From the NCBI GenBank assembly GCA_002897635.1, contig BDTD01000027.1, forward strand, positions 1 through 36,730: 36,730 nucleotides of DNA, given 5' to 3'. Shown here one piece after another: positions 1-29,271 of this stretch (positions within the stretch are counted from its first letter, which is position 1; each line of letters opens with the position of its first letter). This stretch comes from a bacterium BMS3Abin11 (GTDB lineage: Bacteria > Pseudomonadota > Gammaproteobacteria > BMS3Bbin11). The notes under the pieces were generated by a model, which had not been told where the DNA came from, made no database searches, and saw nothing but the letters and a program-made list of their open reading frames with translations. The position numbers and the translations under genes were made by a program.

Positions 1-2462
1 GCGCTAGCGACCGCGACTCCATTGATCAGCACATCAATATCGTGATCCGTTTCAGAGAATCCCTGCAGTTGCAGTTTCAGACTGGCATTGGTGCCGCCAG
101 CGAGACCATTAAGATTGAAACCGAAGTCCTTGCTGCTGCCATTGGTTAACCAGTCCCAGTACCAGTAATCGGCTGTCGCCTGAACCAGTACCGCAATTTT
201 ATCCTGTTCGCTGTGCTGGGTTGCCGTGAAGCTGCCCTGCACCAGTGCCGGACTCGGAGAGCCTCCGTCTGCGGTAGTCATTTTCTGGCCCTTACCTTTC
301 TTCAGCCAGTAAACATTATCTATCGTGTAGAGGCTGTCGATGCCTTCGGCATAGAAATACAGACCGCTGTTATCGGTAGCTGCCTGCCAGGCCACCTCGC
401 CATCTCTGTGACGCAACTGGAGATAACCCTTTTTGATACGTTTCTTGATTTTCTTTGCAGACAGGCCTAACAGGGGGGCTATTTCATCAGCAGCAAGATA
501 ATAGAGGCCATCCTCGCGTATGCCAATTTTGATCCCGGCTTTTCTTGCCGCATGGCGAGCACGTGCTGCAGCCTTACGTGCCTTTGCCTCACCCTTGCGC
601 ACCTCACGCTTGAGGTGATGCGCCATGGCACCCGTATCGGCTGTAGTACGCAAGGCTTTCCCACTAACACGTTTGCTAGCTATCCCGCCCAGGCGGGATG
701 GGCCACCATCTACTGTAATACGATAGGGTCCATAACGACGTTGGGTTCCATCAGCCTGTATCTCGATCAGCCGGTAGACATGCTTTTCTCCGCTCTCGAC
801 CCCGTTGTCTCTAAAACGATAACTCCCCCCCTGTGGTGCCGTCAGACCCAGACCGGGAACTGCCTCGCTATTAAGACGAGTAAACTTGCCCGTGTGAGTA
901 TTTTTGCGTTCAACATAGAAACCGTTAGTGCCAACCTCTGAGGCCGTCTCCCATTCAACGATGCCCTGTCCACTATCGGTCCGTACCTCGAAACGGGATA
1001 CCACGGCCTGGGTCAGGCCCGGGCCAATTTGCAGCTCGCAGATTTCGCCGGTGCTATAGGTGTTACCCGCAGCATACTCGGTCCAGGTGGCCTGCGTTCC
1101 GGTCGTAGAACCACCGACAGTACCTGTCACGATTGTATTCACACCCGGTGTCGGCACATTGACATTATACGCAACGACGGCCTCAGTCCCCGCCGCGAGT
1201 ATGCCGATATCCCATGAGTAGGTACCTGTACTGCCAATTCCCGGCCCAGAAAAGGTTCCCTGTGTTGGAAAACCTGTGCGAACGCCCTGATAGGTAATAC
1301 CTGCAATATTGGGTATCTCACCGGTAACCGTTGCGAGAGTGATATCCTGTGCCGTCGGGTTGATCAGCCGAACTGTCACTACAAACCGGTTTAAATCGCC
1401 TGCACCGGCTTGCCTGGCCCACTGAGCCAGATAGGGTTTGGTTGGGGCTCCTCCAGCAGCACCTGTACTACCTGTTGGCAGGTAGGTTCGGAATGCTCTA
1501 CCATCATTCAGTACAAATCGAGTAGTTGGTGCCCCGTTGGCCTGACCCTGGGGGTTTAAATACCAGTTGCCATAATTGTTAGTCCCGCCCCCTTGATTAA
1601 TGGGTATGCCAAAAGTCCAGATACCGTAATCTTCTGCGCTGTCGTCCTTACCTTCTATGGTGATCGTGTCCGAGACCCAATTCCCGTTACCCGAGATATT
1701 TACAATACCCGTAGTCGTACCGAGTCGGCTGGTGATTTGAACCGGACTGGCGGTAGAGCCATCAAAATCAAAATTATTCTCGCCAAGAGAGCAACCTGAT
1801 GTCACATAAGGGTAGTTGGTAGTGTTACGCGAATTTGTATTGCCTGTAGCCCCTGAGTTGCTAGTGTAATAAAAAATATTCAGTTCAGTATTGTTCACAC
1901 TATCATAGGCACGTATCCCCAGTAGATTGACGTCATCACCAGTAGTAACGGCACTGCTCTCATCAATCCGAATTTCCCAAAGCCCGGCAATGGTGGTAAA
2001 TGTTCCGCCTCCCCCCCAAACCTGATCACTAGCGCCACACCCCCCTGCATTACATGTAGCAGTGTACCTGACTGCACCTGTCGGATCGATGATCTGATAG
2101 TTAACGCTGGTATTGAAGCCGCCACCATGTAACCGATCATTATCACCGGTCAGGCCACTGCCGCTACCAATGTCCATATCCCAGAACTGCACGTTCACAA
2201 TACCCGCTGATGCAGGCACCTCAACCCAGTAGGAATAATAGGTATTCAGAGCTGTATTTGTGCATAAGGTAGCATCATTGGCAGTGTAAAAATCACCAAA
2301 ATCACACGGTGCTCCTTCACCCTCAATGGTGATCCGATTAGCCGTACCAGAACCTGTGGTTGCAGCCCAAGCTGATAACGAGAAGAAAAATACAGCTACT
2401 GCTACGTAAGGTAAAAGGAGATATTTCTTGAAGACAGGTTTCAGTCTGCACCATTCCGACAT
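1..2462 (-). CDS. Large exported C25 (gingipain-like) peptidase family protein, N-terminal part; runs off the left edge
   Basis: An uninterrupted frame of 820 codons runs from ATG at 2462 to the window edge, so the C-terminus, including any catalytic His/Cys, is not visible. A GAGGG ribosome site precedes the ATG. A signal peptide with a hydrophobic stretch ending SLSAWA is at about residues 12-32. Then come a beta-rich domain (about 35-330), a DUF11-like segment (about 355-440), and a segment like the repeat 'VEWETASEVGTNGFYVER' found in exported bacterial proteins (about 485-580). A Lys/Arg/Ala-rich stretch (about 605-640) leads to a region with GLYYLAADEI, GLYFYAEGIDSLYT and NVYWL. These resemble the region preceding the catalytic domain in C25 peptidases of environmental Proteobacteria. 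The family name is from recollection of these motifs. The gene is divergent from the PqqD-like gene with a 160-base gap. It could be a T2SS substrate, which is inference. Confidence 0.72.
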   Translation of the reverse strand, partial: MSEWCRLKPVFKKYLLLPYVAVAVFFFSLSAWAATTGSGTANRITIEGEGAPCDFGDFYTANDATLCTNTALNTYYSYWVEVPASAGIVNVQFWDMDIGSGSGLTGDNDRLHGGGFNTSVNYQIIDPTGAVRYTATCNAGGCGASDQVWGGGGTFTTIAGLWEIRIDESSAVTTGDDVNLLGIRAYDSVNNTELNIFYYTSNSGATGNTNSRNTTNYPYVTSGCSLGENNFDFDGSTASPVQITSRLGTTTGIVNISGNGNWVSDTITIEGKDDSAEDYGIWTFGIPINQGGGTNNYGNWYLNPQGQANGAPTTRFVLNDGRAFRTYLPTGSTGAAGGAPTKPYLAQWARQAGAGDLNRFVVTVRLINPTAQDITLATVTGEIPNIAGITYQGVRTGFPTQGTFSGPGIGSTGTYSWDIGILAAGTEAVVAYNVNVPTPGVNTIVTGTVGGSTTGTQATWTEYAAGNTYSTGEICELQIGPGLTQAVVSRFEVRTDSGQGIVEWETASEVGTNGFYVERKNTHTGKFTRLNSEAVPGLGLTAPQGGSYRFRDNGVESGEKHVYRLIEIQADGTQRRYGPYRITVDGGPSRLGGIASKRVSGKALRTTADTGAMAHHLKREVRKGEAKARKAAARARHAARKAGIKIGIREDGLYYLAADEIAPLLGLSAKKIKKRIKKGYLQLRHRDGEVAWQAATDNSGLYFYAEGIDSLYTIDNVYWLKKGKGQKMTTADGGSPSPALVQGSFTATQHSEQDKIAVLVQATADYWYWDWLTNGSSKDFGFNLNGLAGGTNASLKLQLQGFSETDHDIDVLINGVAVAS

Positions 2463-2535
2463 GGATCACACCCTCTAGAAAATATAGTCTTAATTATTCA
2501 AGTCTAGCATAAAAAACATTACACACCTTTCCGTT

Positions 2536-2545
2536 CCCCCCCCCC
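2536..2545. repeat. Ten-base poly-C tract in the divergent C25/pqqD intergenic region
   Basis: Ten consecutive C residues lie 73 bases upstream of the C25-like start and 77 bases upstream of the PqqD-like start. Homopolymers of this length slip during replication and can alter promoter spacing. No convincing pair of promoter boxes could be placed around it. Confidence 0.6.
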
Positions 2546-2622
2546 AAATACAATCTCAAATCTTTACCAATATGGTAGACTATATTTGTCACTGATCAAT
2601 ACAGATTGATTTCGGCTTTTTT

Positions 2623-2904
2623 ATGAATAAACCAGGCACAGCAACCATATTCAAACTGCGGGCAGATATACGCCACTCTCGTGTTGGTGATGAAGGTGTC
2701 ATTTTACGCCAGGATGATGCTGAGGTTCTAGTGGTTAACGATGTGGCAGCTCGTATCGTGGAGCTGTTTGACAGTCAGCGATCACTCGATGATGTCATAA
2801 TGGTGCTGGCGCAGGAATATGAGATCGACCACGTTACGCTGGAAAAAGACGTCATACAGTACGCGTCGGAATTGCTGGAATCTGGTATAGCCGAAACAAC
2901 CTGA
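2623..2904 (+). CDS. PqqD-like peptide-binding (RRE-type) protein
   Basis: This 93-residue protein has the size and fold signature of PqqD-family proteins. A 'GVILRQDD..VLVVNDVAARIVELFD' pattern at about residues 24-50 is followed by a helical region with DDVI and an acidic C-terminal helix ending ELLESGIAE. In characterised systems PqqD domains bind the leader of a ribosomally made peptide and present it to a modifying enzyme. The downstream 57-residue peptide with a YxxP motif is therefore the natural candidate ligand. No Shine-Dalgarno is evident before ATG 2623. The gene is divergent from the C25-like gene. No radical SAM enzyme, kinase or lasso cyclase lies within the window beside it; a partner could be beyond the left edge. 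Assignment to the PqqD family is fairly secure; its function here is inferred. Confidence 0.8.
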   Translation: MNKPGTATIFKLRADIRHSRVGDEGVILRQDDAEVLVVNDVAARIVELFDSQRSLDDVIMVLAQEYEIDHVTLEKDVIQYASELLESGIAETT

Positions 2905-3028
2905 GGTAAACGGCCAGACAGGTAATGCAACGGAAATTTACCCTGTGGCTCGGTTACGGCATCAGCTATTGGTTAAATAACCTCTCCAGATATTCCCTGG
3001 GGTTCTTTAATCACTGCAGTAAAGCTTG

Positions 3029-3037
3029 TGCTAGAAT
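3029..3037 (+). promoter_or_regulatory. Possible extended -10 promoter element upstream of the small peptide gene
   Basis: The sequence TGCTAGAAT fits an extended -10 box (TGnTATAAT) with one mismatch in the hexamer. It would start transcription near 3044, about 40 bases before ATG 3084. No good -35 box is seen. If real, it lies after the possible upstream start at 2925 and favours the short form of the peptide. Confidence 0.3.
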
Positions 3038-3083
3038 GTATCGATCAAGCAATTTGTTATTGTTCTACTGTCAGAACAGACGC

Positions 3084-3257
3084 ATGAATACTAAAGATTT
3101 AAAAAAAACTAACAGCCGTATTGGCGATAGCAAACGCCCTTATACAACACCGAAGATACTCAGCCGGGAACATCTGGAGGCTATGGCCGTAATCTGCTCC
3201 GGCCCGACCGCAAAAGCTGATGTAATTACCTGTTCAGGCGGCCCCATAGGATCCTGA
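3084..3257 (+). CDS. Small peptide with YxxP leader-like motif and two cysteines; candidate RiPP precursor
   Basis: This is a 57-residue peptide. Residues 1-18 are polar and basic. Residues 19-26 (PYTTPKIL) match the YxxPx(I/L) pattern that RRE/PqqD-type domains recognise in lasso-peptide and related leaders. Residues 27-36 (SREHLEAMAV) are helix-like. The tail from Cys38 to Ser57 holds Cys38 and Cys50 and is rich in Gly, Ser, Pro and Thr (CSGPTAKADVITCSGGPIGS), typical of a core peptide. The gene lies 179 bases downstream of the PqqD-like gene on the same strand. A longer in-frame version could start at 2925 (110 residues), but its extra N-terminus has no protein-like character. No family name is known to me. 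The precursor role is inference from motif and neighbourhood; it could instead be an unmodified small protein. Confidence 0.62.
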   Translation: MNTKDLKKTNSRIGDSKRPYTTPKILSREHLEAMAVICSGPTAKADVITCSGGPIGS

Positions 3258-3457: not shown

Positions 3458-4864
3458 CTAGTTTAAACCAAACAACGAAAACGGTCCGTTATTTCTGCCC
3501 CTGACATTAATCGCATAATAACTATCAACATTCGACCCATCACCCAGTCGTCCATTTTCACCTGAGCCCCAGGCGAAAACGAAGCCGTCCTGGCGCACTG
3601 CCAGACTGTGGCTACTGCCAACTGCTACTTCAATGATGTTGCCGAGCTGCTGGCCGTTACTGAGAACCACTGTGGCGGTGCCGGGCACGGATGAATTTGT
3701 CCCGTCACCCAACTGGCCATTGCTGTTGCTTCCCCAGGCGATGACGCGGCCATCCCGGGTCAGGCCTAGTGCATGAGAATCACCCAGTGCTAGACGTTTG
3801 ATGTTACTTATTAAATTACCCGCACCATCGGCGATGAGGTGGGCGTAAGATTCATCCTGGCGCGATGTGGAATTCGATGCATTGTTATTAAAAGGCACTA
3901 CAAGCGCCGAACTTCCCCAGCCTAGCAGGCGGCCATCGTTCTTTACCGCAATACTGCCGTCACCTCTTGCTACGACCTGTGTAATCCCGGCAATGAAGAC
4001 GTTCTGGCTATTGCGAACAAACACTGGATAGGTCTGCGGCTGCAGGGTGCCATCGGCAAGCTGGCCGGCACTGTTTTCACCCCAGGCGAGAACATGGCCG
4101 GTGTTGGTCAATGCCAGCAGATGACTATCGCCTACCGCTACCGCAATAATGCCGGTATAACGGTTACCCTGCGCATCACGCATGTATTGCATATCAAAAT
4201 CTGTCGCTGGATCGCCATCTTTATAGCGGCTGCCGAGAAATTCAATAGTGGGATCAAAAAACTTGTCACGGTAACGATTGACCGGCTCGCGACTTTGTTG
4301 TTTGTCTTTGAAGGCAGTGAGATCGCCCCAGACCAGGACATTTCCATCCTGATTCACAGCGGCCGCGAAGTTCGCTCCCAGTGCCATAGTAACGATATTT
4401 GCAATTGGCTTACCATCTGGGTCAACGACCGCAGTGGGATAGGTCAGGGTATTGCTGACGACAGGTAGTGGTGAGGGGCCTGTTCCGTCAACGGGTTGAT
4501 CTCCTTTGAACCTGCCACCATAGAGCAGACCGCTGCCTAGCTGCCCCTTTTCATTCGGACCCCAGCCCAGCAGTGTTGCGTCATCCAGCAGCACCATATT
4601 ATTGTCACCGTAGGCCGCCACCGCTATCGCGCCAGCCAGTGCATTGAAACGTATATCAACAACCGGGATGGGATTGAGAGCATCCAGCGTTAACCCATCA
4701 CCGAGCTGCCCGTTGGCATCAGAGCCCCAGACAAACTGGTTACCATCTCCTCTGGCGACCAGGTTATGCGCATCACCTGTGCTAATCCTGTCGGCATACA
4801 GTGGCGCGGAAACAAGTAATAGCAAGGCTATTGCAAACAGTTTTAAATAATTTTTTAGCAACAT
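3458..4864 (-). CDS. Exported RCC1-repeat beta-propeller protein
   Basis: This 468-residue protein starts at ATG 4864 behind AGGA. Residues 1-24 form a signal peptide ending SAPLYA. The rest consists of about seven RCC1-type blades, each with a W-G motif followed by N/S-x-GQLGDG, for example WGSDANGQLGDG (about residue 47), WGPNEKGQLGSG (about 100), WGENSAGQLADG (about 262), WGSNSNGQLGDG (about 377) and WGSGENGRLGDG (about 430). Two blades (WGDLTAF and WGSSALVV) have degenerate loops. RCC1 propellers act as protein- or ligand-binding platforms; the function of secreted bacterial versions is mostly unknown. It is divergent from gspD and could be exported through the adjacent T2SS, but only proximity supports this. 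Confidence 0.85.
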   Translation of the reverse strand: MLLKNYLKLFAIALLLLVSAPLYADRISTGDAHNLVARGDGNQFVWGSDANGQLGDGLTLDALNPIPVVDIRFNALAGAIAVAAYGDNNMVLLDDATLLGWGPNEKGQLGSGLLYGGRFKGDQPVDGTGPSPLPVVSNTLTYPTAVVDPDGKPIANIVTMALGANFAAAVNQDGNVLVWGDLTAFKDKQQSREPVNRYRDKFFDPTIEFLGSRYKDGDPATDFDMQYMRDAQGNRYTGIIAVAVGDSHLLALTNTGHVLAWGENSAGQLADGTLQPQTYPVFVRNSQNVFIAGITQVVARGDGSIAVKNDGRLLGWGSSALVVPFNNNASNSTSRQDESYAHLIADGAGNLISNIKRLALGDSHALGLTRDGRVIAWGSNSNGQLGDGTNSSVPGTATVVLSNGQQLGNIIEVAVGSSHSLAVRQDGFVFAWGSGENGRLGDGSNVDSYYAINVRGRNNGPFSLFGLN

Positions 4865-5001: not shown

Positions 5002-5074
5002 TGTAGGTGCGAATTCATTCGCACAGGGAATGGCGCCTGCTGAAACTATTTGTGCGAATGAATTCGCACCTACA
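5002..5074. repeat. GTAGGTGCGAATTC-type palindromic repeat pair, copy 1 (family A)
   Basis: Two 24-base arms (5002-5025 and 5051-5074) are exact reverse complements of each other, and each arm contains its own inner palindrome around GAATTC. The spacer is 25 bases. The element fills the space between the RCC1 gene and gspD. Other copies are at 8581, 13877, 13969, 15963 (single arm) and 28377. Confidence 0.9.
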
Positions 5075-5135
5075 ATATTGCACATGTTGTATTGTCTTTA
5101 ACACGATGATACTGGTTTACCTGATCTTAAAAAAT

Positions 5136-7016
5136 ATGACTCATAAATATCTGAACACTGCTAATGTCGCGCTATTCAGCATAGCCATCATGCTGATAAC
5201 CACAGTGCCATCGCTTGCCCTGGCACAGACACCAGTTAACAGCCCGCAACAGGTACTGCCCAACAAGGCCAGAGATAAACTGACGCTGAATTTTCAGGAT
5301 GCGGACATCCGTGCCCTGATCAATGCCGTCTCCAAAATTACCGGCAAGAATTTTGTCATCGATCCGCGCGTTAAAGGTAAAGTGACACTGATATCGGGTG
5401 AAGAACTGGGGCCGGATCAGATCTACGAAGTCTTCCTGTCGGTACTGGATGTACATAATATCGTCGCCATTGAAGCGAACGGCCTGGTCAAGCTGCTGCC
5501 CAAGGCTGTGGCCAAACAATTCCCGACACCGATTAAATTCGGTAAAACGGGTGCGCGCGGAGAAACGCAGATCACTGAGGTCTACCAGCTGAAATACGGT
5601 TCGGTACGCGATATCGTACCGATTTTAAAACCTCTGCTACCACCAACCAGTCATTTCGCTGCGCATGTCCCGACCAACACCATCATCATTACCGATACCG
5701 CAGCAAATGTTAACCGTATTCTGGGAATTGTCGCGAAACTGGATCAGGAAGAAACGGTTGGTGACACCCGTGTCGTCTATTTGCAGCATGCACAGGCCAA
5801 GGACATCGTTGGCTTGCTGACTAAATTGATCGTTTCCTACCAGAAAACCGGCAACCCCAAGGCCGCTCAGCAAAAGGTCTCTATTCAGGCAGATGAGGCT
5901 ACCAACTCATTGGTCATTCACGCCCAGGAAGAGCAGATGAAGGTGATCCGCAAGGTCATAGCTCAACTGGATATTCGCCGCGCGCAGGTTTTTGTCGAAG
6001 CCATTATCGCTGAAATCAATGAGGATCGGCTGGGTCAGCTGGGGATTTCCTGGGAAGGCACCAACATAAATTCAAACGGCCAGATCAACGGTGGGACTGA
6101 ATACAATATTGGCAAGGGTGGACTCCGCCTTGGTTTTCTTTCAGGTTACGTCACCAGTCTGACTGGCGATCGGATACCGGAGTTCCAGCTCATTCTGCAT
6201 GCCCTGCGCACAGACAGTGAATCCAACATTCTGTCGACGCCAAATCTTCTGACACTGGATAATGAGGAAGCCGAGATTCGTGTCGCCCAGGAAGTGCCCT
6301 TCATCACCGGCCAGTTTACGACCAATGTTACGACTGCCGTACCAAGACCAACCACACCCGGTACCCCTGGCGGGGGAGCTGTCGGTCCAATCGTCAACCC
6401 ATTCCAGACCATCATCCGCAAGGATGTCGGCCTGATACTGAAAATCAAACCTCAGGTCAATGCCGGCAATACCATCCGCCTGGAAATCTCGGAAGAGCTA
6501 TCCAATATAAGCAAGACGCGCGTTCAGGGTGCTGCGGATCTGATTACCAACAAGCGCATCGTAAAAACTACCGTGGTGGTTGAAGACGGCCAGACGATCG
6601 TGCTTGGCGGCCTGATACTGGATGACCTGTCGAACACCGTTGACGGAGTGCTTGGCCTGTCAAACATTCCCTTCATTGGAGGTTTTTTCCGCAATAAACA
6701 GAAGCAGCAGCGCAAGCTCAATCTGATGCTGTTCATCAAGCCCACCATCATCCGCACAAAAAGTGACATGATCGGTTTCACCGAGCGCAAATACGGGGCC
6801 ATGCGGTCACGCCAGCTTGATGCCAATGGCCGGTCAGAATACCTTATTAGAGACATGTCACCTTCGGTTATGCCACCACTGAATGAAGTACCTGTGGCCA
6901 CCCCCATTGAGCAGGCGATGCACGCTGAGAAAAAACAGAAAAATAAATGGTGGCCGAGTACACCAGAGACCTGCAGCGAAGAGGACTTCGCCGACAACCC
7001 CTGTCCTGACGATTAA
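5136..7016 (+). CDS. gspD: Type II secretion secretin GspD
   Basis: This is the outer-membrane secretin channel of the T2SS. From ATG 5136 it is 626 residues: a signal peptide (about 1-33, ending LALAQ), an N0 domain (LNFQDADIRALINAVSKITG), N1-N3 domains (for example VPTNTIIITDTAANV) and the C-terminal secretin domain with EVPFITGQ, VVVEDGQTIVLGGLI, IPFIGGFF and LMLFIKPTII. The frame is open back to 5007, but that extension runs through the palindromic repeat, so the start before the signal peptide is preferred. ATG 5106 is an alternative, and neither has a clear ribosome site. It is the first gene of the plus-strand gspD-E-F-C operon, 13 bases ahead of gspE. No pilotin gene is seen. Confidence 0.96.
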   Translation: MTHKYLNTANVALFSIAIMLITTVPSLALAQTPVNSPQQVLPNKARDKLTLNFQDADIRALINAVSKITGKNFVIDPRVKGKVTLISGEELGPDQIYEVFLSVLDVHNIVAIEANGLVKLLPKAVAKQFPTPIKFGKTGARGETQITEVYQLKYGSVRDIVPILKPLLPPTSHFAAHVPTNTIIITDTAANVNRILGIVAKLDQEETVGDTRVVYLQHAQAKDIVGLLTKLIVSYQKTGNPKAAQQKVSIQADEATNSLVIHAQEEQMKVIRKVIAQLDIRRAQVFVEAIIAEINEDRLGQLGISWEGTNINSNGQINGGTEYNIGKGGLRLGFLSGYVTSLTGDRIPEFQLILHALRTDSESNILSTPNLLTLDNEEAEIRVAQEVPFITGQFTTNVTTAVPRPTTPGTPGGGAVGPIVNPFQTIIRKDVGLILKIKPQVNAGNTIRLEISEELSNISKTRVQGAADLITNKRIVKTTVVVEDGQTIVLGGLILDDLSNTVDGVLGLSNIPFIGGFFRNKQKQQRKLNLMLFIKPTIIRTKSDMIGFTERKYGAMRSRQLDANGRSEYLIRDMSPSVMPPLNEVPVATPIEQAMHAEKKQKNKWWPSTPETCSEEDFADNPCPDD

Positions 7017-7029
7017 CGACTTTCATAAA

Positions 7030-8562
7030 ATGGGCCTGCAGGATAGCCACAATGAAAACGTCGTCCCGGCAACTGAGTACGCCGCCGGGATCCCCTACCG
7101 GTTTGCGCGGGAGCAGAATGTATTGCTGACCGGGATTAGTGTTCAGGAAGACAAAAGAATTGCCAGCCTGTGCTGTCCGGTCGCCCCTCCTTTCACTATC
7201 GTCGCTGAGCTGCAGCGGTTTCTCAATGCCGGCATTGAGCTCAAAGTTATTAATAAAGATGCCTTTGACAGCCAGTTGCGCAGGGCCTATAGCCGTGGCC
7301 AGTCAGAGGCGACACAGATGGCGGAGGATCTGAGTGAGGATATCGATCTCGATCAACTGATCCAGGACATTCCACAGGCCACCGACCTGCTGGAAGAAGC
7401 TGACGATGCCCCCATCATCAGGCTCATCAACGCGCTGTTTAATCAGGCCATACGCGAACAGGCCTCGGACATCCATGTCGAAGCCTACGAAAATTATTCG
7501 GTCGTGCGTTTCCGTATCGACGGGGTATTAAAAGACATCACCAATTTCCATCGCGGTTTTCATGGTGCGGTAGCTTCACGCCTGAAAGTCATGGCAAAAC
7601 TCGATATCGCTGAAAAACGCCTGCCACAGGATGGTCGCATCTCCTTGCGTGTCGGCGATCATGCTATAGATGTCCGCGTTTCAACCCTGCCGACGCAACA
7701 CGGCGAGCGTATCGTGCTGCGTATTCTTGATAAGCAATCGTCGCGCTTTAATATTGCCGATCTGGGCATGGACGAAAACATGCGGCAGCGCTTCAGGCAA
7801 CTGACCCGCGCACTGCACGGTATGTTCCTGGTCACAGGGCCGACAGGCTCGGGTAAAACTACTACTCTGTATGCCGGCCTCAGCCATATCGACCGGAATC
7901 AGCGCAACATCATCACGGTCGAAGACCCAGTAGAGTATGATCTGGAAGGTATTGGCCAGGTACACGTCAATACCAAAACCGGACTGACCTTTGCCAGCGG
8001 CCTGCGTTCCATATTGAGACAGGACCCAGATGTCGTGCTGGTCGGTGAAATCCGTGATCTGGAAACAGCAGAGATCGCCATACAGGCCAGTTTGACCGGG
8101 CACCTGGTGCTGTCCACATTGCATACAAATACTGCTATAGGTGCTATCACCCGGCTACAGGATATGGGGGTAGACAGTTATCTGATTGCCTCCAGTCTGT
8201 CCGGACTACTGGCACAGCGGTTAGTGCGTGTGCTGTGCAAGAATTGCAAGAAAGAATCGCCTGCTACAGCAAAAGAATTACAGATGCTGGATCTGGAGAA
8301 TTCCGCAGACGGCACTCTATATCATCCGGTCGGCTGCACAGAATGTAATCAGACTGGCTTTCGCGGTCGCATTGGCATCTTTGAGTTAATCGTCATCGGT
8401 AACAACATCAAAACCATGATACATAATGGTGCTGACGAACAGGCGCTGGTAAAAGAGATAAGAAAAACCAGCCCCTCCATCCTCAGTGACGGCCTCGGCC
8501 GGGTACGACAGGGCGTCACCAGTCTTGATGAGGTTTTGCGGGTGACGATGTATGATCAGTAG
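7030..8562 (+). CDS. gspE: Type II secretion ATPase GspE
   Basis: This is the cytoplasmic hexameric ATPase that drives pseudopilus assembly. It is 510 residues from ATG 7030, just after the gspD stop. The N-terminal domain (about 1-140) would contact GspL. The ATPase core holds Walker A GPTGSGKTT (about 270-278), the Asp box ITVEDPVEYDLEGI, Walker B-like VVLVGEIRDLETAEIA, and the His box LVLSTLHTN. The zinc-binding tetracysteine motif, CKNC (about 402-405) and CTEC (about 436-439), is intact, as expected for GspE. The frame is open upstream into gspD, but a longer start would overlap the secretin gene. Confidence 0.97.
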   Translation: MGLQDSHNENVVPATEYAAGIPYRFAREQNVLLTGISVQEDKRIASLCCPVAPPFTIVAELQRFLNAGIELKVINKDAFDSQLRRAYSRGQSEATQMAEDLSEDIDLDQLIQDIPQATDLLEEADDAPIIRLINALFNQAIREQASDIHVEAYENYSVVRFRIDGVLKDITNFHRGFHGAVASRLKVMAKLDIAEKRLPQDGRISLRVGDHAIDVRVSTLPTQHGERIVLRILDKQSSRFNIADLGMDENMRQRFRQLTRALHGMFLVTGPTGSGKTTTLYAGLSHIDRNQRNIITVEDPVEYDLEGIGQVHVNTKTGLTFASGLRSILRQDPDVVLVGEIRDLETAEIAIQASLTGHLVLSTLHTNTAIGAITRLQDMGVDSYLIASSLSGLLAQRLVRVLCKNCKKESPATAKELQMLDLENSADGTLYHPVGCTECNQTGFRGRIGIFELIVIGNNIKTMIHNGADEQALVKEIRKTSPSILSDGLGRVRQGVTSLDEVLRVTMYDQ

Positions 8563-8580
8563 CAAGTTAAATAAATTAGC

Positions 8581-8663
8581 TGTAGGTGCGAATTCATTCG
8601 CACAAAAGGGGTTGGCTGTATTTCTATGTCCGAATAAATTCGAACCTACAATTGTTTTCTTCC
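8581..8663. repeat. Family A palindromic repeat, copy 2, with ATTGTTTTCTTCC tail
   Basis: The left arm GTAGGTGCGAATTC... and the right arm ending CGAACCTACA (8650) are followed by ATTGTTTTCTTCC. The right arm has diverged from the left (CCGAATAAATTCGAACC). It fills the 142-base gap between gspE and gspF. Confidence 0.85.
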
Positions 8664-8704
8664 GGTATGCTGTTGCAAAAGATTACATGAGATTGGTGTA
8701 ACAA

Positions 8705-9922
8705 ATGGGCGCATACGAATATCAGGCACTGGATGAAAAAGGCCGTACCTGCAAAGGTGTACTGACCGGCGACACACCGCGCCAGGTACGGCAGATGCTG
8801 CGTGAACAAGGCATGCATCCCCTGTCATTGACTCCCATCAATGAAAATACCCGACAGGGACAGACCGCCCCCAGCCGCAAACGCATACCGCCGGCTGAAC
8901 TGGCCGTCATTACACGTCAGTTTGCTACCCTGCTGGGTGCAGGATTGACAATTGAAGAATCACTGGAAGGCCTGATCGAGCAATCGAGCAATCATCGCAT
9001 ACGATCCATCCTGACCGCCGTTCGCTCTTCGGTAATGGAAGGAAAATCATTATCCGAAGCCATCAGCCTGTTTCCTGCCGCTTTTCCAAGTCTGTACCGG
9101 GCATCACTGCATGCCGGAGAGGAAACAGGGCGGCTGGATCTGGTACTTGAGCGGCTGGCAGATTATACCGAGAACACCACGACACTGCGCCGACGCATCA
9201 TGATTGCCCTGATCTACCCGGTAATACTGACCGTAGTCGCCATCCTTATCGTCACCAGCTTACTGACCTATGTGGTACCCAAAGTTGTAAAAGTTTTTGA
9301 AGAATCCGGCCAGACCCTGCCGCTGCTGACTAGGGGCATGATCGCCATTAGCGACTTTCTTCAGGCATGGGGCATTTGGATACTGCTGGCAATAGTCCTC
9401 GGAACGATTATTTTTCGTCTCATTTTCAGACAGCCCGGCCCAAAACTGGCACTGCACCATTTTATTCTTCGCATGCCATTGATAGGTAGCATAGTCCGCA
9501 ACCTCAATACATCAACGATGGCCCGCACACTGGCCATCATGTCAGGCAGCGGCGTACCCTTGCTATCCGCCATGGCGGCAAGTTCCCATGTGGTGAACAA
9601 CCTGGCCATGCGCCAGGCAATGGAACAGGCAAGAATCGATGTCGGTGAAGGAATGAGCCTGAATAAAGCACTGAAAAAAAGCGGTCTGTTCCCACCGCTA
9701 CTGACACAAATGGTAGCCAGTGGTGAATCCAGCGGCAGACTTGATGAGATGCTGGAAAAATCTGCCCAGGTACAGGAAAATGAACTGGAGGCCCGCACCT
9801 CCATCATGGTCGGCCTGTTTGAACCGATGATGATTTTGGTCATGGGTGCCATCGTGCTGGTCATCGTACTCGCTATACTGCTACCCATCTTCGATTTAAA
9901 CGAGCTGATCTATGCCAGGTAA
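8705..9922 (+). CDS. gspF: Type II secretion inner-membrane platform protein GspF
   Basis: This 405-residue polytopic inner-membrane protein couples the GspE ATPase to pseudopilin assembly. The N-terminus MGAYEYQALDEKGR is typical of the family. Two homologous T2SSF domains are visible: the first at about 65-190 with LLGAGLTIEESLEGL and LHAGEETGRLD, the second at about 265-390 with MSGSGVPLLSAM and MVASGESSGRLDEML. Hydrophobic segments lie at about 165-190, 215-240 and 370-398. The ribosome site is weak. It overlaps gspC by 11 bases, indicating translational coupling. Confidence 0.96.
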   Translation: MGAYEYQALDEKGRTCKGVLTGDTPRQVRQMLREQGMHPLSLTPINENTRQGQTAPSRKRIPPAELAVITRQFATLLGAGLTIEESLEGLIEQSSNHRIRSILTAVRSSVMEGKSLSEAISLFPAAFPSLYRASLHAGEETGRLDLVLERLADYTENTTTLRRRIMIALIYPVILTVVAILIVTSLLTYVVPKVVKVFEESGQTLPLLTRGMIAISDFLQAWGIWILLAIVLGTIIFRLIFRQPGPKLALHHFILRMPLIGSIVRNLNTSTMARTLAIMSGSGVPLLSAMAASSHVVNNLAMRQAMEQARIDVGEGMSLNKALKKSGLFPPLLTQMVASGESSGRLDEMLEKSAQVQENELEARTSIMVGLFEPMMILVMGAIVLVIVLAILLPIFDLNELIYAR

Positions 9923-10430
9923 AAAAGCAGCAGATAAAATGACGGCAATGCTTCGCTCCACCGCAATCTATCTGCTTGCACTGGCGCTGTTGACCTGGGC
10001 CGGGCTGGACGTCTACCAGCGTTACCAGTTTTATCAGGTGAGAATCAATAAACAGCAGACTCAACCAACTGAATCAAATAAAATCCTCTCACTAACGGCA
10101 AAAAACACTAAGACGGTCGCGAAACAATATCTTTTTGGCAGGCTACTGCTTGATACTCAACCAGTAGTCCTCACCCAGGCACCAGCAACAAAACTAAACC
10201 TGAAACTAATCGGGGTCATCGCAGCCAGCGAAGATGGCGTCTCCAAAGTCATCATCCAGATAGGCAACAGCAATGTCGATGTCTATTCCGTCGGCGATAC
10301 ACTACCAAAGGGAAATGCAACCATAGAAAAGATAGAAGCGACACAGGTGCTGCTCAGGCGGAATGGTAAGCTGGAGAGTTTGGCGATTATCAGGCCGGAA
10401 CTGGAAAACAACGGCGAGATTAAGGATTAA
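9912..10430 (+). CDS. gspC: Type II secretion protein GspC
   Basis: This 172-residue bitopic protein links the inner-membrane platform to the secretin. A transmembrane helix is at about residues 13-32. A linker is followed by the homology region, with YLFGRLL (about 73), LNLKLIGVIAAS, a Gly-Asn-Ser segment and a 'SVGDTLP.GNATIEKI' pattern. No PDZ domain or C-terminal coiled coil follows, so it is a short form. An alternative start is at 9939. The last codons (E-I-K-D-stop) fall in an ATTAAGGATTAAGG purine repeat, so the C-terminus is set by repeat DNA. It is last in the gspD-E-F-C operon; gspC more often comes first in such operons. Confidence 0.85.
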   Translation: MPGKKAADKMTAMLRSTAIYLLALALLTWAGLDVYQRYQFYQVRINKQQTQPTESNKILSLTAKNTKTVAKQYLFGRLLLDTQPVVLTQAPATKLNLKLIGVIAASEDGVSKVIIQIGNSNVDVYSVGDTLPKGNATIEKIEATQVLLRRNGKLESLAIIRPELENNGEIKD

Positions 10431-10463
10431 GGACGAAAGATGAAAGGTATCCGATATTGTTTC

Positions 10464-10551
10464 GTAGGAGTGCCGTCTCGGCGCGATTGCTTCATAAAAC
10501 GTAATACGTAAAACGTTCCTGTCGAAAATCGCGCCGAGACGGCACTCCTAC
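10464..10551. repeat. GTAGGAGTGCCG-type long inverted repeat (family B) between convergent T2SS operons
   Basis: Arms 10464-10487 and 10528-10551 are 24-base exact reverse complements. Between them lies an ACGTAA-type repeat (10493-10517). The right arm overlaps the last codon and stop of gspM. The hairpin could stop transcription from both sides, although no U-run follows it. Confidence 0.9.
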
Positions 10552-11036
10552 AAAGAGACTTCTAACCGAATATTCACCATCGGAAACTGCGCCGATTTCG
10601 TTATTGAAACCCTGGTTACTTCAATTCCCCTGGCGCTGATCTGATCCAGCCATTGCAGCCAGTCTTCAAACACGACTTTATCAAACCATATCTTTGCTGT
10701 GCCACTCTCTTTACCGGGTTGAATCTGTTTTATCTGATCACGCAGTTTCAATTTTTTCGCTGTCTGATCGATGATTGTTAGCAAGGGTACATCAGTAGAA
10801 TTACCGCTGCCAGTTTTGTTCTGTTCGAGCTGGCGGATCATATCTGCCTGTTCCTGCATCCATGCAAGATCTTCTGAATATTTAACAAGCTGCAACCGCT
10901 GGCGTTTGAGTTGATCCTGCATGGGTACCCACAGCAGCGAATACAGCAAGATACTCAAAACAACTAAAATGCCAATCCCCAGTACTCGCTGATCTCTGGC
11001 AGGCAGTTTATACCAGTATTCCTTTAACGCGTTCAT
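10548..11036 (-). CDS. gspM: Type II secretion protein GspM
   Basis: This 162-residue bitopic inner-membrane protein partners GspL. The N-terminal WYKLPARDQRVLGIGILVV leads into a transmembrane helix at about 18-38. The periplasmic part begins with a helical, Gln/Leu-rich stretch and ends in the ferredoxin-like GspM domain with VFEDWLQWLDQISARGIEV and VNIRLEV. ATG overlaps the gspL stop (4 bases). The stop TAG is the TTTGTAGGAG edge of the family B repeat. It is the last gene of the minus-strand operon. Confidence 0.9.
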   Translation of the reverse strand: MNALKEYWYKLPARDQRVLGIGILVVLSILLYSLLWVPMQDQLKRQRLQLVKYSEDLAWMQEQADMIRQLEQNKTGSGNSTDVPLLTIIDQTAKKLKLRDQIKQIQPGKESGTAKIWFDKVVFEDWLQWLDQISARGIEVTRVSITKSAQFPMVNIRLEVSL

Positions 11037-12202
11037 GTAGCCGCCCTGCTGATCTCAAAACGTGCCTGCACCTTGCTACCACGGGCACCTGATTGTTTCA
11101 GGCTAACCTCGATGGATCTGTTGTTCTGTAACCGTTCCCGTATTCGATCCAGGTGCGCGAAATCATCCAGTGTCAGAACGGCAGTTAAATCCCCATCCCG
11201 ATAATTCAGTTCTTCAACAACAACTTGCTGGCCTTTTAACAGACTGGCAGTAGTCACCAGCAGGTAGGTAAAATCATTTTCGGTAACCCGATTTTGCAGG
11301 CTGTCTATTTTATTTTTTGTCTGTACGCGTGCTCGACCAGGCAGTAATTTTGAACCCGGGAACAGCTCTTGATAAAGAGACTGCATAGATAGTTCGAGTT
11401 GTGTATTTGTTTCTCGCAACCAGACCAGTTCACCGACATCACTAGCCAGTTTTACGAAACCCGCCAGCGCAATTATCGCAACCGCAGGCCAGTACCGTTT
11501 CAAAAAGCTGTGCTTGCTGCCCTGCGTGAATTCTCCATTCAACAGGCCGGCACCATTATCAGGTGCCTGCTGCGAAAGCCAGTCCGACAGACCAGTTCCA
11601 ATTTCAGTCTTAATTAGCTGTTGATCTATTCCATCAGGCAGCAGAGCTTCAAGCCGTTCATCAATAAGCAGAGTTGTTTCTTTATCCTGCTCATTCAACC
11701 AGACCGGTAGATTCTCAAGATCAGTCACCGCACCCTCATACAAACCAGACCTGACCAATACACGGTTATTCTCGGACAGCGTGATGACTGCAGTCCCGGG
11801 CTTCGCGCCCGGCAACAGAAAATAATCAGGCAACATGGCATCAACACTGATACCGGCTTCATGAATCTGCTGCAGCCAGGAAGTCATCAATTCGCGGCTG
11901 ACGTAAGCAAAAGTAACCCTGTTTTCTTCTCCCGTATGCAGCAGCAGAAAATGCAAATCATCAACCGAACTGATCACACTGTCTTCAATAGCATAGGGAA
12001 TCGCCGCCATCAGCCTCGCCCGGTTCCTCACTGGGATCGCCTCAACCCGAGTCACCACCTGCTCACCCCGCACAACCGCCACACAACGCTGCCCGTCAAC
12101 AGGCAGCTCAGACAGAGTTTCAACCACACCGGAATTCTCGACGCCTTTAGTGCCAAGGTTTACCCATTGGTAGGGGGAGGATGTTGTGAAGTAGAGGGCC
12201 AT
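11033..12202 (-). CDS. gspL: Type II secretion protein GspL
   Basis: This 389-residue inner-membrane protein recruits the GspE ATPase. The N-terminal half is the actin-like cytoplasmic domain, with AAIPYAIEDSVISSVDDLHF typical of GspL. A transmembrane helix is at about 236-256 (WPAVAIIALAGFVKLAS). The C-terminal periplasmic domain, with VVVEELNYRDGDLTAVLTL, dimerises with GspM. ATG 12202 is preceded by a C/T-rich repeat tract and has no Shine-Dalgarno, which is unusual inside an operon. Translation may depend on coupling or be leaderless-like; this is inference. Confidence 0.92.
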   Translation of the reverse strand: MALYFTTSSPYQWVNLGTKGVENSGVVETLSELPVDGQRCVAVVRGEQVVTRVEAIPVRNRARLMAAIPYAIEDSVISSVDDLHFLLLHTGEENRVTFAYVSRELMTSWLQQIHEAGISVDAMLPDYFLLPGAKPGTAVITLSENNRVLVRSGLYEGAVTDLENLPVWLNEQDKETTLLIDERLEALLPDGIDQQLIKTEIGTGLSDWLSQQAPDNGAGLLNGEFTQGSKHSFLKRYWPAVAIIALAGFVKLASDVGELVWLRETNTQLELSMQSLYQELFPGSKLLPGRARVQTKNKIDSLQNRVTENDFTYLLVTTASLLKGQQVVVEELNYRDGDLTAVLTLDDFAHLDRIRERLQNNRSIEVSLKQSGARGSKVQARFEISRAAT

Positions 12203-12307
12203 GGGGTTAAGGTTAAAGGTTTAAGGGGTGAGAGGAAAGGTTAAAGATAAAGGATCAAAGATGAAGGATTTAGAGAGTATTGTCTGGGTGTTGTCTTTCC
12301 CCTGTTT
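12203..12307. repeat. Low-complexity purine/pyrimidine tract between gspK and gspL (family D)
   Basis: This 105-base gap reads AAGGTTTAAGGGG, GGTTAAAGATAAAGG and ATCAAAGATGAAGG on the plus strand. It belongs to the same AAGGATTAAAGA-type family that occurs at 10421, 15650, 21178, 21350, 22670 and 34610. It holds no gene. Confidence 0.7.
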
Positions 12308-13273
12308 TTAAAGAACCGGCCTCCGCCTAACCACCCCAATCTTCCCATTCTTCCTTTCAACCAGGCTATTAATTTTAGCCCTTGTCCTGCCGATTTCCGT
12401 ACTGCTTTTTATCAGAAAATAGCTGCTCTGGTTCGTTATCAGGGGAGTGGCAATATCCTGTTCGCCTGCCATCATATCATGTTGCAGAAATTCCTCTACC
12501 GTATAGCCATTAGCCTTTGGGCGATCGCTGACCAGTCTCTGGCTCTCATCAATCGATAAAAGATTCTTACCTAAAATACGCAGTAAACCTGCGGGGGCGG
12601 TATTTATATTGATGCGGATATTGTTGGCAGGCAGTGCTGCAATAAACGGGGCGAGCTTCTGCACCGTTTTTTTGTCAAAACCTTTCACCTGCAGCAATTC
12701 AGAAATATCGCTGAAAGCACGATTCGCTGCGCGATAGGGTGGTGTCATATTGAGGTATTCGATATCTTCTGCACCGCTGGTACTTCGTACATCCTGATCA
12801 GGATCCAACCAGTCCAGCACTGCATCAGACAACAGGGGATTCAACTCCAGAGAAATCAGCAGCCGGCGAAAGGCCTGCGTCCAGATCCGTGGATCAGGTT
12901 TGTTACCCGTTTGTGGTGGAATAATGCGGGATTCGTCTATCATATTATTCAGGTTTAGCCGTCCCTGCATATCCTCAATTACGGTCTGCAGGCTGCCCTG
13001 TTCGATTTCAACGCCCGGTCCCAGGCTATTCCAGGCTTCTCCCGGGTGATCGCTCTTGCTCTCCAGACTATCTTTAATCAGCACACTAACCGCCCAGGCC
13101 TCTGAGCCCAGCAGGGTCTGCCAGGCCTGGCTACTGTTTCGGGTGTTTTCTGTTGTACGCAGTTGCAGCAGTATATCTTCAGACAACCATGCGGCTGTAG
13201 TGATCATTATGACCAGGATAAACAGCACAATGAGCAGTGCCATTCCTTTTGATGTACTCTTTCTACAATGCAT
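12308..13273 (-). CDS. gspK: Type II secretion minor pseudopilin GspK
   Basis: This 321-residue protein is the large minor pseudopilin at the pseudopilus tip. The prepilin site is KGMALLIVLFILVI (cleavage after Gly10), followed by the hydrophobic helix. Unlike other pseudopilins it lacks Glu at +5, as expected for GspK. The body has MQGRLNLNNMI (about 103), an alpha-domain helix-hairpin-helix region with ISELLQVKGFDKKTVQKL, and INTAPAGLL, all family hallmarks. The start overlaps the gspJ end by 11 bases. Confidence 0.95.
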   Translation of the reverse strand: MHCRKSTSKGMALLIVLFILVIMITTAAWLSEDILLQLRTTENTRNSSQAWQTLLGSEAWAVSVLIKDSLESKSDHPGEAWNSLGPGVEIEQGSLQTVIEDMQGRLNLNNMIDESRIIPPQTGNKPDPRIWTQAFRRLLISLELNPLLSDAVLDWLDPDQDVRSTSGAEDIEYLNMTPPYRAANRAFSDISELLQVKGFDKKTVQKLAPFIAALPANNIRININTAPAGLLRILGKNLLSIDESQRLVSDRPKANGYTVEEFLQHDMMAGEQDIATPLITNQSSYFLIKSSTEIGRTRAKINSLVERKNGKIGVVRRRPVL

Positions 13274-13862
13274 GTTTTATCTCGAAGACACGCCGGTACT
13301 GCTTACCGTTCGCCATACGAATCTGCCATTCCACCCCATCAGGCAACTTGTCTACAGCTTCCCAGCTTGACGAAGACAGCATCGATCCATTGAGATTCTG
13401 TAGCACGTTCACGGTGATACTCTCCACATCCGTCAACAACAGATGTTTTATCTCGCGCGCACCCTGATCACGATCCAGCACCCGCCAGTTTATCCGTATG
13501 AGATCGCCATTTTCCCAACGGTAGGCCGCACGCTGCAACGTACTTTCTCCTGCCAGCGTGACATTGCGCCGTGCCGTGGTAAAACGCAGCAGTTCACCGG
13601 CAACATTTATATTATTGAGAATTAATAACGGTTCCTGATCACCGTAAGCATCACGCACGATACGCTGCGACATGAAGCGCATATCCTGCTCCAACAGACT
13701 GAACGCAAGCTGCAGTTGCCTCAGCTCATCGAGCTCTGCCTCCAGCACAGCACTATTATCAAGAAAGCGATTAAGGCTGGCATAACTGACCACGGCAATG
13801 ACGGCAAAGATACCGATAGCGACGACCATCTCTAACAGGGTGAAGGCGCGGCTATGTTTCAT
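13263..13862 (-). CDS. gspJ: Type II secretion minor pseudopilin GspJ
   Basis: From ATG 13862 this is 199 residues with a classic short prepilin leader (MKHSRA/FTLLEMVVAIGIFAVIAV) and Glu5 after the cleavage site. The frame could be extended upstream to 13898, but that adds only repeat-derived residues. The C-terminal half includes VEWQIRMANG, similar to GspJ's last strands. It forms part of the GspH-I-J-K tip. It is separated from gspI by a 228-base gap occupied by two family A repeats. Confidence 0.92.
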   Translation of the reverse strand: MKHSRAFTLLEMVVAIGIFAVIAVVSYASLNRFLDNSAVLEAELDELRQLQLAFSLLEQDMRFMSQRIVRDAYGDQEPLLILNNINVAGELLRFTTARRNVTLAGESTLQRAAYRWENGDLIRINWRVLDRDQGAREIKHLLLTDVESITVNVLQNLNGSMLSSSSWEAVDKLPDGVEWQIRMANGKQYRRVFEIKHAL

Positions 13863-13876
13863 GTGCAAAATCACTC

Positions 13877-13945
13877 TGTAGGTGCGACAAATTCGCACAC
13901 CCCTGCCTCGAAAAAGAACTTTGTCCGAATGAATTCGGACCTACA
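13877..13945. repeat. Family A palindromic repeat, copy 3
   Basis: The left arm has lost a few bases (GTAGGTGCGACAAATTCGCA). The right arm is TCCGAATGAATTCGGACC. It lies within the T2SS operon between gspI and gspJ. Confidence 0.85.
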
Positions 13946-13968
13946 ATATTACCCCAGCAAAGCATCCC

Positions 13969-14050
13969 TGTAGGTGCGAATTTATTCGCACAAAGAGGTT
14001 TGGTCTTGCTCCGTGTCCGAATGAATTCGAACCTACAATTGTTTTCTTCC
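13969..14050. repeat. Family A palindromic repeat, copy 4, with ATTGTTTTCTTCC tail
   Basis: It is in tandem with copy 3, in the same orientation, 23 bases apart. The tail ATTGTTTTCTTCC matches that of copy 2. It ends 40 bases before the gspI stop. Confidence 0.85.
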
Positions 14051-14090
14051 AGGGAGATGGAGGTGACATCAGAACTGTTAGCGCTATATT

Positions 14091-14591
14091 TCATGGCGCC
14101 TCTCTTTTGATCGACGGGCTGACTGGCGGGGGCTGGCCTCCGTCCGGACCCGGCGCGGGGGCGATCTCTGTGTTTATAACTTCCGGTGTATCCAGTAAGT
14201 AACCCGTCAACATGCCGGCCTCTTCTGTCTCATCCCTGTCAGTAAAGACAACAACATCCAGGCGAAAAAGTAAGGGGTCTGCGGTAGTGCTTGTAGTTTC
14301 TCGAAAATACCAGACTCTTTCAGCCATCTCTTCTGATCCTTGCTCCGTACCGGGAACAGGCTTAATAGCTAGTATTCTGAGTGTTTCAAGGCGGTTGGCG
14401 GCCACCCAGTTGGCGACCATGCGCTGCTCTAGTGTGGCAGTAGTCTCTGCATAGCCGGTAATGGCTCGCGAGACTGCAAGTATGCCGACAGCAACAATAC
14501 CGAGCGCGATAATGACCTCAAGCAGCGTGAAGCCCTGACACAATCCTGGTCGTTTACTGCACTGCACTGATTTCCATTTTCCGCTTCTCAT
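14091..14591 (-). CDS. gspI: Type II secretion minor pseudopilin GspI
   Basis: From ATG 14591 this is 166 residues. AGGG lies about 9 bases ahead of this start, and the start overlaps the gspH end by 38 bases; a TTG start at 14627 is possible but less likely. The prepilin leader is longer than usual, with cleavage at CQG/FTLLEVIIALGIVAVG. The family motif ANRLETLR is at about residue 75. The C-terminal 40 residues are Pro/Gly-rich (PAPGPDGGQPPPV) and extend beyond the usual GspI length of about 120-130 residues. Confidence 0.9.
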   Translation of the reverse strand: MRSGKWKSVQCSKRPGLCQGFTLLEVIIALGIVAVGILAVSRAITGYAETTATLEQRMVANWVAANRLETLRILAIKPVPGTEQGSEEMAERVWYFRETTSTTADPLLFRLDVVVFTDRDETEEAGMLTGYLLDTPEVINTEIAPAPGPDGGQPPPVSPSIKREAP

Positions 14592-15024
14592 TGGTGAGAA
14601 CCCTGTAACGCACCTCTTCAAGATCAAACTCTGCGGAGAATGGTGTCATGAAACCATCAGGCTCGCAACGAAGGTATGCCTTATCTTCATCCGAAGAAGT
14701 GTCTTCAACATCAAGATTCAGGCTAATACCTTCAGGCAACTGACGCAGACGAAAAATATCATCCTGCTTAACTGCCTGCCACTCAGCATTGTCAAAAACA
14801 ACAAATTTATACGCCGTCGCACCTTCATCAGTCAGCGCAAGCACCCTGCCCTGGGTAATACTCTCCTGGCACATTTGATCAACCAATGCGACAAAACGGC
14901 GCGCCTCCTTTTCAACAATTTGAGATGGATCACGACGAAAATTGATCGATACGATACCGACCGTTAGTGCGATCAGGAAGACTACGATCATGATTTCGAG
15001 GAGAGTGAAACCTGATTGTTTCAT
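14554..15024 (-). CDS. gspH: Type II secretion minor pseudopilin GspH
   Basis: This 156-residue protein has the shortest prepilin leader, MKQSG/FTLLEIMIVVFLIALTVG, with Glu5. Downstream, ARRFVALVDQMCQESITQGR is the conserved GspH/FimT helix, and ALTDEGATAYKF matches the first strand region. It lies between gspG and gspI, the usual order. Confidence 0.92.
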   Translation of the reverse strand: MKQSGFTLLEIMIVVFLIALTVGIVSINFRRDPSQIVEKEARRFVALVDQMCQESITQGRVLALTDEGATAYKFVVFDNAEWQAVKQDDIFRLRQLPEGISLNLDVEDTSSDEDKAYLRCEPDGFMTPFSAEFDLEEVRYRVLTNEKRKMEISAVQ

Positions 15025-15037
15025 AAAGGAATGATTT

Positions 15038-15124
15038 ATGTTTTACGATTTACGTATTACGGAACTTCAAGTAAATTGAATCAGTGGCGGCCTGCATGTT
15101 ACGTAAACCGTAAAACATAACACG
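15038..15124. repeat. Inverted pair of ACGTAA-type repeats (family C) between gspG and gspH
   Basis: 15038-15062 (ATGTTTTACGATTTACGTAT...) and 15098-15124 (GTTACGTAAACCGTAAAACA...) are imperfect reverse complements 35 bases apart. Related copies are at 10493, 23375, 23526, 24354, 29272, 30473 and 34576. Confidence 0.75.
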
Positions 15125-15125
15125 A

Positions 15126-15548: not shown

Positions 15549-15561
15549 GGGATTAGGTTTT

Positions 15562-15631
15562 AAGTTCCAAGTTCCAAGTTCCAAGTTCCAAGTTCCAAGT
15601 TCCAAGTTCCAAGTTCCAAGTTCCAAGTTCC
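15562..15631. repeat. Ten exact tandem copies of AAGTTCC (family E)
   Basis: 70 bases consist of ten perfect 7-base units, 13 bases upstream of the gspG start. Perfect identity implies recent expansion, and the copy number is likely to vary between strains. The unit is not a multiple of three, so any readthrough frame changes with copy number. Confidence 0.97.
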
Positions 15632-26911: not shown

Positions 26912-26913
26912 AA

Positions 26914-28332: not shown

Positions 28333-28376
28333 AATTTACATTTTTTAGTAATTCAGATATTCAAGAACCCGATTAA

Positions 28377-28446
28377 TGTAGGTGCGAATTCATTCGCACA
28401 AAATAGTCCGGTTATACTTCCCTGTCCGAATGAATTCGGACCTACA
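28377..28446. repeat. Family A palindromic repeat, copy 5
   Basis: The left arm GTAGGTGCGAATTCATTCGC and the right arm TCCGAATGAATTCGGACC are 22 bases apart. The right edge supplies the stop codon TAG of the VpsP-like gene. Confidence 0.9.
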
Positions 28447-29164: not shown

Positions 29165-29271
29165 AATGTAGTTTATAAAATAGTTTTGTAGCAGTTATTC
29201 AAGGTTAATATTAAACACTTTTTGCAGTAGAGGATAATAGGAAATTTATGTTTTATGCATTTGGTTTTGAT

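Follow-up and report, generated by a model that had tools for sequence, protein, structure and literature searches.

A probable RiPP-type cassette associated with exported C25/FN3 proteins in a gammaproteobacterium and its counterparts in other phyla

In the system for linear polyphosphorylated peptides, LPPs (LppA/B/K/S/N/D), whose products have been described from Bacillota, a recognition element for ribosomally synthesized and post-translationally modified peptides (RiPPs), termed an RRE, is required for cleavage of a YxxP-containing leader by a SipW-like signal peptidase I (SpI), and a kinase phosphorylates a Ser of the core (PMC13381572). LPP cassettes have been reported within capsule loci (PMC13381572). 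In paeninodin-type systems, a homologue of HPr kinase places a phosphate on the precursor's C-terminal Ser (PMC8498205), and YxxP-type motifs are known from the leaders of both lasso peptides and LPPs (PMC10368454, PMC13381572). Here we describe a locus at the left end of a 36,730-nucleotide stretch of DNA from the gammaproteobacterium BMS3Abin11 (the window, which is the entire contig C27 of a 2.67 Mb genome of 99.9% completeness). It consists of an exported-protein gene (- strand) followed by genes for a PqqD-type protein and a 57-residue peptide (both + strand), and each of the three has a counterpart on a second contig of the same genome, C16. We think it likely that the window carries one of two copies of a RiPP-type cassette, in which PqqD-type, radical SAM, kinase and SpI-like proteins would act on a precursor peptide that would work outside the cytoplasm with a C25/FN3 protein.

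Comparison with described systems suggests that the cassette most likely unites LPP- and paeninodin-like helpers with a radical SAM maturase and is tied to exported C25/FN3 proteins. It resembles the LPP system in its YxxPx(V/I/L) leader, discrete RRE, HprK-like kinase and SpI of the SipW/archaeal type, and at one related locus (L068) also in an NTP_transf_5 gene beyond the C25 gene. At C16, an HprK-like kinase, an RRE and an SpI-like protein stand together with a YxxP precursor; the other marks of LPPs, namely their precursor motif, the lack of a further maturase and a host in Bacillota, were not found for the cassette. Unlike LPPs, it has a radical SAM/SPASM protein, an exported C25/FN3 partner, a conserved Cys-Lys-Cys core that ends in Ser, SpI-like proteins whose nucleophile is mostly Cys, and precursors of the form YxxP...E..E..A..C in place of YxxPxVLxHQ, and it occurs in Gammaproteobacteria, Acidobacteriota and others. 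With paeninodin-type lasso peptides it has in common a B1-type RRE, an HprK-like kinase, a C-terminal Ser on the precursor and YxxP (WxxP in paeninodins), but the genome lacks B2, and the two conserved Cys residues, the radical SAM maturase and the C25 neighbour set it apart. The SynChlorMet, GeoRSP and HPr-rel-A cassettes of NCBIfam likewise pair a PqqD-like protein with a radical SAM/SPASM protein, an HprK-related kinase or both; all matches to their models fell below the curated cut-offs (nearest, PqqD_rel_X, 26 of 35 bits), the precursor fits no model, and the C25 partner is a further difference. Like PqqA/PqqD/PqqE and mycofactocin, the cassette combines a small precursor of conserved rather than diversifying core with a PqqD-type chaperone and a radical SAM/SPASM protein, but no PQQ or mycofactocin partner genes were identified at these loci, the core contains Cys, and a kinase and C25 are present. 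PorU (the type IX secretion sortase) and the gingipains share the C25 domain with its His-Cys pair intact; the PorU model scored 176 bits on a fragment of the C16 protein, below its 420-bit cut-off, and unlike PorU the protein has a gammaproteobacterial host and is paired with a peptide cassette. No paper that we found in the open-access literature links HprK to SPASM, or C25 to PqqD or to RiPP precursors, although an unlisted description is possible.

The peptide locus is real and largely as a sequence-only reading of the window had described it. That reading had proposed a 57-residue peptide with a YxxP motif and two Cys residues, and the window peptide indeed carries Y20-T-T-P23-K-I25 and C38-x11-C50. 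An in-frame ATG at 2925 would extend it to 110 residues; its relatives favour the 57-residue form. A search of the genome with the window peptide returned one paralogue, on C16 (E 1.5e-5; 45% identical). A chance open reading frame (ORF) is ruled out by this paralogue, by ratios of nonsynonymous to synonymous substitution (dN/dS) of 0.11-0.38 in four close pairs of peptide relatives, and by the occurrence of the full motif in 0 of 91,055 shuffled ORFs. Between the window and C16 peptides themselves dN/dS was about 0.32, a saturated value. The family motif is YxxPx[ILV]...E..E..A..C. Selection of the peptides relied on the Y, the P, both E residues and the first Cys. It made no use of the second Cys, of the Lys, of the Ala three residues before Cys or of the last residue. 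Two Cys residues occur in 64 of 64 distinct peptides and a C-terminal Ser in 62; with three more peptides added, the last residue is Ser or Thr in 67 of 67 and exactly one Lys lies between the Cys residues in 62 of 67, counts to be read with the caution that the search profile itself favours similar sequences, including at positions not used for picking. The core is kept across phyla, GPTAKA..C..GPI.S being common to the window peptide and to that of locus L025 (Acidobacteriota), and this conservation points to a specific function and not to an arms race of antibiotics. Searched to E 10, the peptides had no counterpart among the Pfam and NCBIfam models, except that one relative matched DUF5972 below threshold, and no description of the cassette was found in open-access literature and family libraries, though one may exist elsewhere.

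The PqqD-type protein, also anticipated from the sequence, matched PF05402 at 44.3 bits (cut-off 23.4). Among solved structures its best match is TfuB1 (6jx3, E 3.3e-6), which serves a lasso peptide system as B1 (RRE) protein, in agreement with the lasso-type leader function that had been proposed for the YxxP motif. When the genome was searched, PF05402 and the peptide each brought up one paralogue; the two are adjacent on C16, and the PqqD proteins are 41% identical. The order on C16 is a C25 protein (1297 residues; PF01364, 242.7 bits), a 65-residue peptide whose frame overlaps the C25 stop, PqqD, and a candidate maturase with radical SAM (PF04055) and SPASM (PF13186) domains, followed on the opposite strand by HprK-like and SpI-like genes. 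The same cassette accompanies a C25 protein 74% identical to that of C16 at another gammaproteobacterial locus. No maturase had been seen to the right of the peptide, which holds for the window, though a radical SAM/SPASM gene adjoins the C16 peptide.

The window's exported protein has an N-terminal hydrophobic signal by inspection, and its frame is still open at position 3, where the left contig edge interrupts it; the other half of the gene is absent from the whole assembly. Pfam C25 gave no match to this fragment, since the contig stops before the domain. The fragment is C25-like only because the PorU model matches it weakly (5e-4) and because it is 36-40% identical, over about 370 residues, to the complete C25 paralogue of C16. 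A divergent exported protein, as the sequence-only reading had it, is present. A structure model of the FN3 region (mean pLDDT 65) gave generic FN3/Ig-like beta-sandwich matches and was not used for function.

Relatives of the peptide were found beside the same genes in many genomes. An initial two-row peptide search of 95 relatives gave chance-level matches only. A blind search by peptide alone, with a three-peptide profile over 369 Gammaproteobacteria, returned four non-self matches below 1e-4, all adjoining a radical SAM, a C25 and an HprK-like gene (C25 by Pfam in three; in the fourth only a C25 tail at a contig edge), with PqqD detected at three within the stretch seen. As C25 is present in only 16 of the 369 genomes, the probability of at least three of four matches lying beside it is 2e-4. 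Most other gammaproteobacterial C25 genes had no cassette within the stretch examined, so the link concerns one C25 subgroup rather than C25 generally. We also counted partner genes within 8 kb of 60 peptide loci, using as controls 30 loci of similar length picked, regardless of peptides, because they matched the query region, mostly in its FN3-like domain. Radical SAM genes were present at 38 peptide loci against 1 control (Fisher p = 9e-9), PqqD at 35 against 3 (6e-6), HprK at 28 against 2 (7e-5) and C25 at 29 against 9; all five gene types occurred at 10 peptide loci. A short precursor with a conserved leader motif beside a PqqD gene, and a radical SAM/SPASM gene linked to the precursor family (at C16 and through these counts, though not on the window contig), mark a RiPP cassette with a discrete RRE and a radical SAM/SPASM maturase. 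Together with the conserved YxxP and Cys residues they support the proposal that the peptide is a precursor; neither of the two checks named in the sequence-only reading spoke against it.

The distribution is wide. When 84,980 genomes were scanned with the segment that precedes the C25 domain, exported relatives came to light in Desulfobacterota, Kiritimatiellia, Planctomycetota, Nitrospirae, Acidobacteria and other groups. At L025 a close relative of the window peptide accompanies the exported protein, and 56 of 396 genomes of its phylum, Acidobacteriota, carry the peptide. Five of the exported relatives stand with a radical SAM gene and a YxxP peptide of another kind, group A ('YEKPxLRIIELAAEEVLAAGCK...C...C..GS'), four of them also with an HprK-like gene within the stretch examined. 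Group A and group B cassettes lie side by side in one genome (L155), where the group A peptide (15283-15468) has three Cys residues, ends in CNQPGS and has its own radical SAM, HprK-like and C25 genes. Two tandem loci, L147 and L148, hold two C25-peptide pairs beside one radical SAM/PqqD/HprK set. Other YxxP peptides were also observed: short ones of the KxYEKPxI...C.K..C..GP.TS type directly behind exported proteins with FN3-like ends, with no C25 or radical SAM gene nearby (L157, L160, L186, L187, L194, L200), and a further type (IYEPPKIITYTSEEILEEIGPAHACSPFDPGCGVLG; L029, 1032-1238) ahead of radical SAM and HprK-like genes in a metagenome-assembled genome of Desulfobacteraceae.

The HprK-like motif H..GxS..GK(S/T)..SDD is kept in 15 proteins, with the His, the P-loop GxxGxGK(S/T) and the DD pair, the same residues that the lasso kinase BsfK needs (PMC10368454); the C16 protein was modelled by AlphaFold at pLDDT 90, and a fold search with the model matched PEPCK/HPr kinase. 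All complete C25 domains that were checked, in the C16 paralogue and in relatives, have kept the His-Cys pair, and the domain has matches among PorU and gingipain structures (6za2, 4ief). The SpI-like protein has matches to SEC11A and to signal peptidase models of the archaeal and SipW kinds, reaching 35.5 bits against TIGR02228 (cut-off 51.85). His and Asp are conserved in 14 of 14 such proteins, and the nucleophile Ser before a conserved Met is replaced by Cys in nine, including that of C16.

These features suggest a route of maturation. The PqqD-type protein would bind the YxxPxI leader of the 57-residue precursor, and the radical SAM/SPASM enzyme of C16, possibly common to both peptides, would act on the C-x(n)-K-x(n)-C core, where a thioether or another radical-made bond at Cys or Lys is the most plausible product; one maturase serving two peptides has precedent in L147 and L148. 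By analogy, the HprK-like kinase may phosphorylate the C-terminal Ser, a residue and a gene that fit each other in light of the paeninodin-type systems, and the SpI-like protein may cleave off the leader. The radical SAM/SPASM step would thus replace or supplement steps of the LPP/paeninodin type. The modified peptide would then act outside the cytoplasm with the adjacent exported C25/FN3 protein, which may trim, bind or carry it.

Several points weigh against this account. The window locus itself lacks genes for a radical SAM protein, a kinase and a leader peptidase; these would have to act in trans or lie in an assembly gap. From gene content, conservation, co-occurrence and catalytic motifs we infer the binding, all the reactions, the export and the function. 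With Cys as the nucleophile residue in most of them, the SpI-like proteins are uncertain peptidases. At 20 of the 60 peptide loci no partner gene lies within 8 kb; the loci are partly non-independent, several being from closely related genomes, and the peptide search started from peptides near C25 and so leans towards similar members. The peptide was not found in the six congeneric genomes, several of them incomplete.

With regard to function, a possible and tentatively held reading is that the modified peptide, rather than diffusing as a natural product, is dedicated to the exported protein as its peptide cofactor, propeptide-like inhibitor or surface tag and is bound or attached to the FN3/C25 protein, with C25 perhaps doing the joining. 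A gene for a protein with an FN3-like domain lies within 600 bp of 39 of the 67 peptides, on the same strand in all 39, including the six loci above that lack C25 and radical SAM genes, and this proximity points to a putative partnership, although FN3-like folds are generic and secreted proteins often have them. There is one peptide per C25 in the tandem loci, the C16 peptide frame overlaps the C25 stop, and the core is conserved across phyla, unlike those of diversifying bacteriocins; the intact His-Cys pairs, the gingipain/PorU structure matches and the relationship of C25 to the type IX sortase PorU also fit. On the other hand, 21 peptides have no FN3-like gene in the examined stretch, and the window's exported gene is divergent from the peptide and 676 bp away. 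A fuller proposal, possible but less likely than not, is that exported FN3/C25 proteins have a radical SAM-modified, Ser-phosphorylated peptide as their dedicated extracellular cofactor, inhibitor or covalent tag, which a PorU-like C25 enzyme would join or activate.

It is unlikely that the window peptide is a decaying, functionless duplicate and that the C16 copy alone is active. The contig has no maturase, and PqqD and the peptide are set apart from C25 in an unusual arrangement, as decay would have it; yet the frame is intact, every family feature is kept despite the divergence of the two copies, the dN/dS value given above, though saturated, speaks for constraint, the locus keeps its own PqqD paralogue, and tandem systems with one common maturase exist. 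A second HprK-like gene (C16:2-451) is moreover interrupted by the left edge of C16 and its other half is absent from the assembly; because both this gene and the window C25 gene lose halves at contig edges, further genes may sit in an assembly gap. We suspect that the left ends of C27 and C16 border one common gap; the two ends share no k-mers that would join them directly. Very unlikely, in our judgement, is a lasso peptide or LPP system with radical SAM and C25 genes as incidental neighbours. The YxxPxI leader, lasso-like RRE, HprK-like kinase, SpI-like protein and the NTP_transf_5 gene of L068 would suit it, and the gene set matches that of PMC13381572, the MsbA-like transporter (not looked for at these loci) aside. 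LPP leaders, however, read YxxPxVLxHQxIxFETxxS, LPPs are described as Bacillota-only, and the excess of radical SAM genes over the controls is hard to call incidental. A lasso peptide as such is rejected, as the B2 leader peptidase (PF13471) is unmatched in the whole genome; an Asn-synthetase-like macrolactam cyclase was likewise absent among the inspected genes beside peptides, no genome-wide search for it having been made. The RiPP-type cassette with an exported partner is the reading that we retain, and its features are collected in Table 1.

Table 1. Coordinates of the cassette, its surroundings in the window, and variant SpI-like proteins at other loci
Feature	Position	Strand	Details
Precursor peptide, 57 residues	3084-3257	+	C16 paralogue, family alignment, purifying selection in relatives
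Leader motif Y-T-T-P-K-I, predicted PqqD-binding site	3141-3158	+	Y, P and I invariant in 7-sequence alignment
Predicted core C-SGPTAKADVIT-C-SGGPIGS	3195-3254	+	Single Lys between two Cys, C-terminal Ser
PqqD-type stand-alone RRE (peptide chaperone)	2623-2904	+	93 residues; PF05402
Exported C25-type protein, PorU/gingipain-like architecture	3-2462	-	820 residues seen; 3' half including catalytic domain beyond contig edge
FN3/Ig-like beta-sandwich domain, 'EWETxSE..GFYV..YRLIE..YGP'	723-1001	-	Iterated profile E 2.9e-30; common to exported partners of peptide family
SpI-like proteins with Cys for Ser nucleophile	L003 7478-7906; relatives L067, L068, L069, L150, L151, L152, L154, L159		
Exported RCC1-repeat protein	3458-4864	-	PF13540 x7 repeats, PF25390 199 bits; convergent with peptide gene
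Type II secretion gene cluster	5007-15626		Adjoins C25-type exported gene and peptide
Polysaccharide-type region	24403-36730		ABC transporter, Wzy_C ligase, NTP_transf_5 (PF14907), glycosyltransferases, carbamoyltransferase

The polysaccharide-type region lies 20-30 kb from the peptide cassette of the window. Within it, a small gene pair on the - strand resembles, by inspection, an AbrB-like antitoxin (34237-34479) paired with a Fic/Doc-like protein (33844-34236). A promoter and terminator scan gave results at chance level.

The analysis defines an unnamed precursor family of at least 64 distinct members in two phyla, for which Pfam and NCBIfam hold no model, and assigns to it a probable maturase, kinase and leader peptidase, all three predicted; the exchange of Ser for Cys in the signal-peptidase-like protein is a further oddity. 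It also ties the family to large exported proteases found outside Bacteroidota. The gene set, which apparently yields a small modified peptide next to a large exported protease, is widespread in bacteria, and if the peptide does prove to be a cofactor, inhibitor or tag of its exported neighbour, the cassette would represent a peptide-conjugation or protease-control system outside Bacteroidota.

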